Below, one piece after another: positions 11,041 to 36,103 of a stretch of 64,000 nucleotides of DNA; the stretch's first letter is position 1; every line of letters starts with the position of its first letter. The DNA is taken from the NCBI RefSeq assembly GCF_000761485.1, contig NZ_JPMX01000058.1, forward strand, positions 17,064-81,063, given 5' to 3'. The position numbers were made by a program, and so were the translations under genes. The stretch is from Modestobacter caceresii. GTDB taxonomy: Bacteria > Actinomycetota > Actinomycetes > Mycobacteriales > Geodermatophilaceae. The notes below the pieces were generated by a model that worked only from the letters and a program-made list of their open reading frames with translations, did no database searches and was not told the DNA's origin.

Positions 11041-11120
11041 GATCAGGTGCCCTGATCACCGGCTGTCCCCCTGCACCAGCGTTGGTGCGGGAGGGCAGCG
11101 TTGGATCAGGGCACCTGATC
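11041..11120. repeat. Modular palindromic repeat, copy A
   Basis: The 17-mer GATCAGGTGCCCTGATC at 11041-11057 and its exact reverse complement at 11104-11120 bracket a second imperfect palindrome built on CTGCACCAGC/GTTGGTGCGG (about 15 of 20 positions pair). The whole 80 bp could fold as one cruciform. It lies between the TetR gene (stop at 11129) and the start of the 140-aa gene. A related copy is at 32141-32199. Confidence 0.8.
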
Positions 11121-32100: not shown

Positions 32101-32140
32101 GGTGCCCAGTGTCCCTCCGGCTCGTCCCCCTGCACCGACG

Positions 32141-32199
32141 ACTGTCCCCCCGCACCAGCGCTGGTGCGGGGGGACGGTCGCTGATCAGGTGACCTGATC
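32141..32199. repeat. Modular palindromic repeat, copy B
   Basis: ACTGTCCCCCCGCACCAGC at 32141-32159 pairs with 32160-32178 (18 of 19). After a short spacer comes the palindrome GATCAGGTGACCTGATC at 32183-32199. The same two modules, in the same order and with the same spacing, occur in copy A at 11041-11120. It sits between the end of etfD and the start of the hypothetical membrane protein. Confidence 0.8.
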
Positions 32200-34591: not shown

Positions 34592-34653
34592 ACCCCCAGC
34601 CCCGCCCACGACGGCGTCGCCGCGGCGCCCCGCCGGCCGAGCCCACCAGCTCT

Positions 34654-34735
34654 GGGATCAGGTCACCTGGTCACGTGGGCACCTACCGGGTGGCCGGCCG
34701 CGCGGTAGGTGCCCACCACGCGAGGTAGGACGTCG
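34654..34735 (+). repeat. Left 82-bp inverted repeat
   Basis: Modules in order: GATCAGGTCACCTGGTC (34656-34672), GTGGGCACCTACCG (34675-34688), its partner CGGTAGGTGCCCAC (34703-34716), then AGGTAGGACGTCG (34723-34735). The middle two form a hairpin with a 14-base loop. Confidence 0.85.
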
Positions 34736-34813
34736 CCGTCCACATCTCGTCCTGCCGTCCACAGCTGGACCGCGAGGCCGCCTCGGGCTCGGTCGCGGGG
34801 TGACCCTCGACGA

Positions 34814-35803
34814 GTGCTCCCGGTCCTCGACGAGATCGCCGCGCGCCAGTTCGGCGTCTTCACCTCCGCCCAGGCGCTCGCTGCCGGCCACTCCCGCGAC
34901 GAGGTGCGCACGCTGTTGCGCACGGGTGCGTGGAGCCGGCGACGTCGCGGGGTCTACTGCGCCGGCGACGTGGCGGCCCGCGCCGCAGGCGACCCACGGC
35001 TCGCCCACCTGCTCGACGTCGCCGCCGTCCTGGTCGCCCTACCGCGGCGCCCGGCGGTCAGCCACGCATCGGCGGCGGCCGTGCACGGGTTGCTCGTCCC
35101 GCGCCGGGGGCTGACCGAGGTGCGGCTCACGGACCCGTACAACTGGCGCGTGGGCCGCGGCTACCGGGTCTCCCAGGGTGGCCTGCCCGCCCGTGCGGTG
35201 GCCGACTGGGGACCCTTCTCGGTCACCGCCGTCGCCCGGACGTTGGTCGACTGTGCGCGGGAGTGGGAGCTCGTCGACGCGGTCGTCGCCCTGGACGACG
35301 CGCTCCACCGGGGTCTCACCGATCCCCTGCTCCTCCGCGAGGCGGTGGCCGGTGCGCGCCACTGGGAGGGTTCGGCCCGCGCTGCCCGGGCGGTGCGGTT
35401 GGCCGACGGTCGCGCGGAGTCGCCGCTGGAGAGCGCTGGTCGGGTCCAGATCGTCACCAGCGGGCTCCCGGTGCCCGAGCTGCAGGTCGAGCTGTGGGAC
35501 GACGAGGGCTTCATCGGCCGCGTCGACGGGTGGTACGACGACGCGGCGGTCGCTCTCGAGTTCGACGGTGCGGTCAAGTACCTGGACCCGCGCGGCGGGC
35601 GCTCGCCCGGTGAGGTGCTCTGGCAGGAGAAGCGACGAGAGGACCGGATGCGGGCCGCCGGCGCACGCCCGGTGCGGATCGCGAAGGCGGACCTCGGGGC
35701 CCCGTGGTCTGGCGTCCGCGGCCGGCTGCGGACCCTGCTGCTCACTCCGTACGTGGGACCGCGCGGGTTCCGGGTGGTGCGCCGTCCCGGCCTGACCGGC
35801 TGA
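34814..35803 (+). CDS. AbiEi-like winged-helix / DUF559-type nuclease-fold protein
   Basis: The product is 329 residues from GTG 34814, chosen because the conserved N-terminal helix (LPVLDEIAARQFGVFTSAQAL) begins here. Residues about 1-45 look like the winged helix of type IV antitoxin (AbiEi-like) proteins (AAGHSRDEVRTLLRTGAWSRRRRGVY). The middle is a YP_-type helical core. The C-terminal ~100 residues resemble DUF559/Vsr-like PD-(D/E)XK folds: ESPLESAGRV, RVDGWYDDAAVALEFDGAVKY and LWQEKRREDRMRAAG, with candidate metal ligands in RVDGWY and EFDG. No cognate toxin gene is next to it. The gene fills the space between two long inverted repeats. Function unproven. Confidence 0.68.
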   Translation: MLPVLDEIAARQFGVFTSAQALAAGHSRDEVRTLLRTGAWSRRRRGVYCAGDVAARAAGDPRLAHLLDVAAVLVALPRRPAVSHASAAAVHGLLVPRRGLTEVRLTDPYNWRVGRGYRVSQGGLPARAVADWGPFSVTAVARTLVDCAREWELVDAVVALDDALHRGLTDPLLLREAVAGARHWEGSARAARAVRLADGRAESPLESAGRVQIVTSGLPVPELQVELWDDEGFIGRVDGWYDDAAVALEFDGAVKYLDPRGGRSPGEVLWQEKRREDRMRAAGARPVRIAKADLGAPWSGVRGRLRTLLLTPYVGPRGFRVVRRPGLTG

Positions 35804-35806
35804 GGT

Positions 35807-35888
35807 CGACGTCCTACCTGACCGTGTGGGCACCTACCGAACGGTCGGCCGCGGGGTAGGTGCCCACATGACCAGGTGACCTGATCCC
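35807..35888 (-). repeat. Right 82-bp inverted repeat
   Basis: The reverse complement of this segment matches 34654-34735 in about 70 of 82 positions. All four modules are conserved; the differences fall in the hairpin loop and one six-base linker. It begins four bases after the stop of the nuclease-like gene. Confidence 0.85.
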
Positions 35889-36103
35889 GGTGCAACGGGG
35901 GCGCGACGGTGACGGCGCGGCGACGGCGCCCGGTCGATGAGGGGCGTGTCACGAGGTCGGCCCCTGGGAACACAGCCGCCACCCCTGCCGTTAGGCTGGC
36001 CAGGAAAGTTGAGCGGACCAGGCGCAAGGCCCATCGATGGACGGTGCCGGCCCTCGACTCCAGACCAGCACCATCCCGTCAGCAACGCTAGGAGAGGCCT
36101 TCC
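35889..36103 (+). promoter_or_regulatory. dnaK upstream region
   Basis: The 215 bp before dnaK hold no gene. A TTAGGCT box at 35992-35998 could be the -10 element. The HAIR-like operator lies just after it, and AGGAGAGG at 36090-36097 is the ribosome binding site. Confidence 0.45.
36008..36028 (+). promoter_or_regulatory. HAIR-like HspR operator upstream of dnaK
   Basis: Arms GTTGAGC and GCGCAAG separated by seven bases match the HAIR consensus CTTGAGT-N7-ACTCAAG at 10 of 14 positions. Position about 75-95 bp before dnaK fits HspR repression. It is more degenerate than the clpB site at 59323-59343. Confidence 0.6.

Follow-up and report, generated by a model that had tools for sequence, protein, structure and literature searches.

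Predicted winged-helix Vsr-like nuclease genes of Actinomycetota are mostly enclosed by hairpin repeats that follow the protein clade

A 64,000-nt stretch of the Modestobacter caceresii genome (contig NZ_JPMX01000058.1, positions 17,064 to 81,063; hereinafter designated the window) carries, between etfD and dnaK, a single gene enclosed by two inverted copies of a hairpin repeat (hereinafter designated type A; Table 1). A repeat search places the arms at 34649-34740 and 35802-35893 (92 nt each, 83% complementary), and direct comparison in inverted orientation finds 76/92 positions identical; mismatches concentrate in the hairpin loop, in the linker that precedes the third half-site and at the outer edges. 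The initial annotation, made from the sequence alone, had proposed inverted 82-bp ends differing in the hairpin loop and one linker; this description holds over the longer match, and the 82-nt arms (34654-34735 and 35807-35888) describe the core of the repeats well. Each arm is built of three blocks: the outer palindrome GATCAGGTCACCTGGTC, the central hairpin GTGGGCACCTACC...GGTAGGTGCCCAC and a gene-side third half-site, which reads GAGGTAGGACGTCG in the left arm and AGGTAGGACGTCG in the right arm. With DNA parameters, each arm folds better than 200/200 shuffles (z –5.0 and –4.5). Pairs in the type A stem stay paired (88.5%), better than slid partners; covariation in the stem does not exceed that of shuffles and no claim is drawn from it, and an Rfam search of the region returns no RNA family. 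The inverted-flank score of the gene is 108, compared with at most 31 for 31 other long open reading frames (ORFs) of the window.

The repeats fit the gene closely. Translation probably starts at GTG 34814, which aligns with the starts in Blastococcus relatives and lies 78 bp past the left arm; ORF callers would instead take GTG 34709, the first codon of the longest ORF, which falls within the left hairpin. The stop codon ends at 35803, three bases short of the right arm. The ratio of nonsynonymous to synonymous substitution rates against the ortholog in G016 is 0.146, indicating purifying selection (G000 denotes the window genome and the other G numbers genomes of the genus).

The encoded protein is predicted to be a nuclease with a PD-(D/E)XK-type fold and an acidic site, preceded by an AbiEi-type winged helix. 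Pfam recognizes AbiEi_4 only, and the AbiEi models of PADLOC match as well. The AlphaFold model is confident (predicted local distance difference test, 89.6; predicted template modelling score, 0.86), and Foldseek aligns it with AbiEi (6y8q, E 2.5e-4), covering the winged helix and the overall N-terminal fold. Further Foldseek matches to Vsr (1cw0, probability 0.91, E 0.32) and to the homing nuclease I-Bth0305I (3r3p, probability 0.89, E 0.56) are weak by E-value, and we base the Vsr/I-Bth0305I-like assignment on these matches plus the conserved active site: in an alignment of 138 family proteins, the C-terminal acidic residues are conserved in 130-135 of 134-137 genes. Two paralogs, L016 and L017, exceed the Pfam cut-off for DUF559; the window protein does not. 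These data agree with the AbiEi-like winged helix and DUF559/Vsr-like nuclease of the initial annotation, and the modelling it had proposed does yield a candidate PD-(D/E)XK core. No known transposase class was found in the window protein with Pfam or NCBIfam, the latter giving no match at all, and a search of the PDB by sequence was likewise empty; an HUH/Y1 transposase was not found, the only Pfam domain being AbiEi_4 and the fold matches being AbiEi, Vsr and I-Bth0305I. There is no AbiEii nucleotidyltransferase partner next to the gene, whose neighbors are etfD and dnaK, and the unit consists of a single gene.

Table 1 Positions in the window of the gene, its enclosing hairpins and two solo hairpins
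Feature	Position	Strand	Evidence
Left hairpin repeat, type A, whole	34654..34735	+	Repeat search and direct comparison; folds with z –5.0
Outer palindrome GATCAGGTCACCTGGTC, common to type A and type B hairpins	34656..34672	+	Sequence
Central hairpin: stems GTGGGCACCTACC / GGTAGGTGCCCAC, loop 34688-34703	34675..34716	+	Repeat search, folding
Third half-site GAGGTAGGACGTCG, gene-side end of left repeat	34722..34735	+	Sequence; same arrangement in L056, L057, L059, L062
DnaA-box-like GTCCACA between hairpin and start codon	34738..34744	+	Motif search; enriched family-wide
Second DnaA-box-like site, in CCGTCCACAG	34757..34763	+	Motif search
Gene: AbiEi-type winged helix joined to predicted Vsr/DUF559-like nuclease, 329 aa	34814..35803	+	Start chosen by homology
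AbiEi_4 winged-helix domain	34826..34960	+	Pfam, E 2.9e-10
Predicted nuclease core: conserved E213, D245, E256 and D258 (ExD), K262 (K/H), A1 numbering	35429..35680	+	Alignment; Foldseek 1cw0, 3r3p
Right hairpin repeat, type A, inverted	35807..35888	-	Repeat search, comparison, folding
Solo type B hairpin between etfD and next gene	32139..32199	.	Present or absent at same place in related species
Solo type B hairpin	11041..11120 (C58:28104-28183)	.	

The window unit belongs to a large actinobacterial nuclease-hairpin family. The window genome holds nine such paralogs, and the family is present in 22/23 genomes of the genus, the majority of which give five to ten matches. Among 139 family genes with readable flanks (L055/L083 and L064/L171 each represent one place entered twice), 107 reach the enclosure threshold, an inverted-flank score of at least 35, compared with 11/400 mismatched upstream/downstream pairs, a control rate raised by some of these pairs being related. 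On the downstream side, the hairpin typically begins no more than about 20 bp from the stop codon, or overlaps it. The family is matched at 1e-20 in 95/296 sampled Actinomycetota genomes, and 20/29 loci read from distant Actinomycetota are enclosed, compared with 0/300 mismatched pairs; the close fit between repeats and gene, first proposed for the window alone, therefore recurs across the family. No homolog was found in plasmids and phages at E 1e-5.

Hairpin sequence follows protein clade, not genome. Many hairpin sequence types can be distinguished in the family, and about 20 have at least two members. On the protein tree, the majority of types occupy a single block; types 2, 4, 6, 14 and 17 span wider. 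Hairpin and protein distances are correlated (Mantel r 0.519; 0/2000 permutations as high), and none of 181 same-genome gene pairs shares a hairpin type, though genomes carry several types. At one locus, different species hold AAATGGCCATTT, CCAAAATGG-type and GGGGCCAAAATCGCGACTTTGGCCCC hairpins, indicating drift at orthologous places. Orthologous REP-associated tyrosine transposases (RAYTs) with different classes of repetitive extragenic palindrome (REP) have been described (PMC3686654).

The stretch between hairpin and start codon carries a motif of its own. An unbiased 8-mer count finds CTGTGGAC/GTCCACAG in 99/136 upstream regions and in none downstream, and TGTGGAC/GTCCACA occurs, in either orientation, in 104/136 upstream regions compared with 4/335 window tiles. 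YYGTCCACAG precedes 8/9 family genes of the window genome, among 64 occurrences genome-wide. The upstream motif takes the form TTGTCCACAG in Blastococcus and certain other genera; the high-affinity DnaA box described for Mycobacterium and Streptomyces is TTGTCCACA (PMC4285127), and GTCCACA(G) agrees with the core of the actinobacterial box. Because the motif stays constant while the hairpins diverge, a host protein such as DnaA appears a likelier reader of GTCCACA than the unit's own protein.

Hairpins also occur without a gene. Type A is found at about 8 loci of the window genome, about six of them further places without the gene, and elsewhere in the genus in G016 (ortholog, 93%), in G019 (decayed gene relict) and in three incomplete metagenome-assembled genomes; the remaining genomes of the genus have no type A hairpin, one weak match in G001 excepted. 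Every near-complete genome with the window gene or its relict thus contains type A, and none without it does, that weak match aside. A second type, type B, is marked by the motifs GATCAGGTGACCTGATC, CTGTCCCCCCGCACCAGCGTTGGTGCGGGGGGACAG and GATCAGGTCACCTGATC, and a full-length copy forms a single 94-nt hairpin on folding (z –11.1). It gives 9-46 matches (both strands counted) in 8/8 genomes with the type B gene clade, is also present in five near-complete genomes without the type B gene, including the window genome, and is absent from five near-complete genomes. Other hairpin types of the window genome are likewise dispersed. Dispersed intergenic copies occur with the cognate gene, as in REP/RAYT systems, an exception being the orphan type B of the window genome.

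The solo copies turn over between species. At nine type B sites of the window genome compared with G019, G016 and G017, copies are present in one genome and missing in the next; the window-genome copies are absent from G019 at the compared sites and variably retained in other relatives. Six type A sites also vary: depending on the relative, type A, type B, a hairpin from another family clade or no hairpin at all is found there. Site S5, for example, carries type A in G000/G016, type B in G019/G017/G005 and a GTTGAGCCGCGTG type in G018/G021, and site S4 is empty in G017/G018.

The gene-bearing unit behaves differently. In 46/46 gene pairs of at least 80% identity synteny is kept, 44 on both flanks and 2 on one, and the unit is therefore mostly inherited in place. 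A transposon hopping with its gene was considered as the main account and rejected, closely related genes being syntenic. Both empty and occupied etfD-dnaK sites, which the initial annotation had proposed to compare, are found. The type A unit lies there in + orientation in G000 and G016 and is decayed in G019; an opposite-orientation homolog with different hairpins occupies the site in G017, G018, G021, G004 and G020; G022 holds only a gene fragment and G005 only a hairpin-like remnant, judged by eye; the site is empty in G001, G002, G003 and G008. At two further loci, that of L016, L142 and L144 and that of L135, L154 and L162, whole units are likewise flipped between species, with both neighbors unchanged and breakpoints at the hairpins, making three loci in total. 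In Modestobacter sp. VKM Ac-2977 (L171 / L064), the window gene has decayed and both hairpins remain. The mobile unit of the initial annotation is thus not an ordinary mobile element, since all close pairs are syntenic on at least one flank; what survives of the proposed mobility is that solo hairpins, unit orientation and unit loss vary between species, while the gene-bearing unit mostly stays in place.

Comparison thus shows enclosure, cognate hairpin types, dispersal, turnover, inversion and a conserved active site. We interpret the nuclease and its cognate hairpin as a probable REP/RAYT-like partnership with a non-HUH enzyme, in which the hairpin population would be kept by the enzyme, and assign this reading a probability of roughly 0.6. 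The winged helix would read the half-sites of the hairpin, a step suggested by AbiEi, which binds inverted repeats in its own promoter and needs its winged helix for repression (PMC3985639). The nuclease may then nick or cut the hairpin, perhaps when extruded or single-stranded during replication, a timing that the conserved upstream DnaA-box-like site would fit. Repair of the cut would copy hairpins to new intergenic places and occasionally invert the unit; the enzyme would in this way keep the hairpin population going, and hairpin and enzyme would co-evolve.

Several observations weigh against such a partnership. We infer hairpin cutting, binding or movement by the enzyme from comparison and observed none of them. 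Inversion between the arms could also come from ordinary homologous recombination, and phylogenetic non-independence weakens the match between type A hairpins and the presence or absence of their gene. Similarity among solo type A copies is only about 80-85%, which leaves recent activity not visible, and target-site duplications are not readable at the compared sites, where the intergenic flanks are too diverged. The initial annotation had named genes without repeats, and repeats without a link to the family, as findings that would speak against it, and each is found in part. A Curtobacterium clade carries the gene without flanking repeats; the window genome has 35 type B matches (both strands) and no type B gene in its draft assembly, leaving orphan repeats, and the gene is therefore not needed for old copies to persist. 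The repeat-less Curtobacterium clade comprises L070-L078 and L080, most of which keep a TCCACAG-like upstream motif.

The foremost alternative, which we regard as unlikely, is a regulator: the hairpins, bound through the winged helix, would serve as operators and bidirectional terminators, the nuclease would be a toxin or an effector of defence, and the scattered hairpins would form a regulon or act as decoys. Hairpins do sit just past stop codons and in intergenic gaps, the protein matches AbiEi models of PADLOC, and AbiEi antitoxins are known to bind inverted repeats within the promoter that drives them (PMC3985639). A regulon should nevertheless keep its sites, whereas here solo sites are gained and lost from one sister species to the next and give way to other hairpin types; moreover, autoregulation needs no second copy downstream of the stop codon, and the single-gene unit lacks an AbiEii partner. 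Somewhat less probable again is homing-like conversion, in which a break made by the nuclease in one hairpin or palindrome class is repaired from the nuclease's own locus, so that the hairpin at the cut site is exchanged and the classes compete for sites. The finding of different hairpin classes at one syntenic site between species, as at S5, favors this scheme, together with GATCAGGTCACCTGATC, common to types A and B, and the structural similarity to I-Bth0305I, a Vsr-like homing endonuclease. Several sites, however, carry no hairpin at all, as S4 in G017/G018, hairpins also arrive where relatives show none, and conversion tracts remain hypothetical.

An addiction or restriction-like unit, whose nuclease harms cells or sites without protective hairpins and whose flanks stabilize the locus, mobility being incidental, is improbable: losses and decayed copies are frequent at etfD-dnaK and solo hairpins persist without the gene, even though the nuclease fold, the AbiEi-type domain and long-term retention in place would suit it. 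Least probable by our estimate are hairpins moved by an unrelated transposase with the nuclease gene trapped between two copies, as a passenger of miniature inverted-repeat transposable elements (MITEs), which short inverted-repeat elements in intergenic gaps might suggest and which about 20 multi-member types tracking the phylogeny of one protein family, enclosure recurring across the phylum and the lack of any other gene so enclosed in the window speak against. Of these alternatives, the regulator and the MITE passenger fit turnover and clade-matched hairpin types least.

The nuclease-hairpin partnership resembles known systems in part. REP/REPIN elements with RAYT (TnpA-REP, an HUH Y1 transposase) offer the closest comparison (PMC3116915, PMC3686654): in both systems a gene is flanked by cognate palindromes with dispersed non-autonomous copies, each repeat class has its own distinct gene, inheritance is mostly vertical, orthologous genes carry different repeat classes, and repeats outlast gene loss, as REPs persist after RAYT loss (PMC3116915, PMC3686654). 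The REP/RAYT-like logic with an unrelated enzyme suggested by the initial annotation accordingly finds its counterpart in the cognate hairpin types and dispersed solo copies. The systems differ in that the enzyme here joins an AbiEi-type winged helix to a Vsr-like nuclease and is non-HUH, hairpin length is mostly 60-95 bp, copy number is lower, units are flipped in place and a DnaA-box-like site lies upstream; by inspection, no GTAG/CGTC tetranucleotide tag is common to the hairpin types. The AbiEi antitoxin of type IV AbiE systems shares the winged helix, the overall N-terminal fold (6y8q) and, for AbiEi itself, known inverted-repeat binding (PMC3985639), whereas here there is no AbiEii toxin gene, a nuclease is fused, and the repeats lie on both sides of the gene and are dispersed. 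Vsr, I-Bth0305I and DUF559 proteins are alike in the C-terminal fold and acidic active site; in contrast to them, the present nuclease has no mismatch-repair context or intron and is tied to hairpins. An insertion sequence with MITEs would also have one gene between inverted ends and short derivatives elsewhere; here, no known transposase domain is found, the ends are hairpins, target-site duplications are not readable in the diverged flanks and the gene is mostly fixed in place.

Papers joining DUF559 with inverted repeats were not found in the literature searched, most subscription journals lying outside it. Within that scope, and with the enzyme's action inferred from comparison, an enzyme-repeat partnership with this nuclease would be categorically new. 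REP/RAYT is, to our knowledge, the only well-studied case so far of a bacterial enzyme partnered with a palindrome population; an independent partnership with an unrelated nuclease, if true, would make such pairings a repeated evolutionary solution. It would also account for many 'AbiEi/DUF559' genes whose annotation stops at antitoxin or endonuclease, provide about 20 ready enzyme-hairpin recognition pairs for specificity tests, and define a new class of enzymes with the potential to cut or move hairpins in DNA. A broader proposal, to which we give slightly less than even odds, is that Actinomycetota harbor a wide and so far undescribed class of winged-helix Vsr-like nucleases, independent of REP/RAYT, that maintain their own palindrome populations, spreading hairpins and inverting their own unit in step with replication under DnaA-box control.

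In five loci from distant relatives (L253, L275, L268, L270 and L274), the flanks match better in direct than in inverted orientation, an arrangement that palindromic ends allow.
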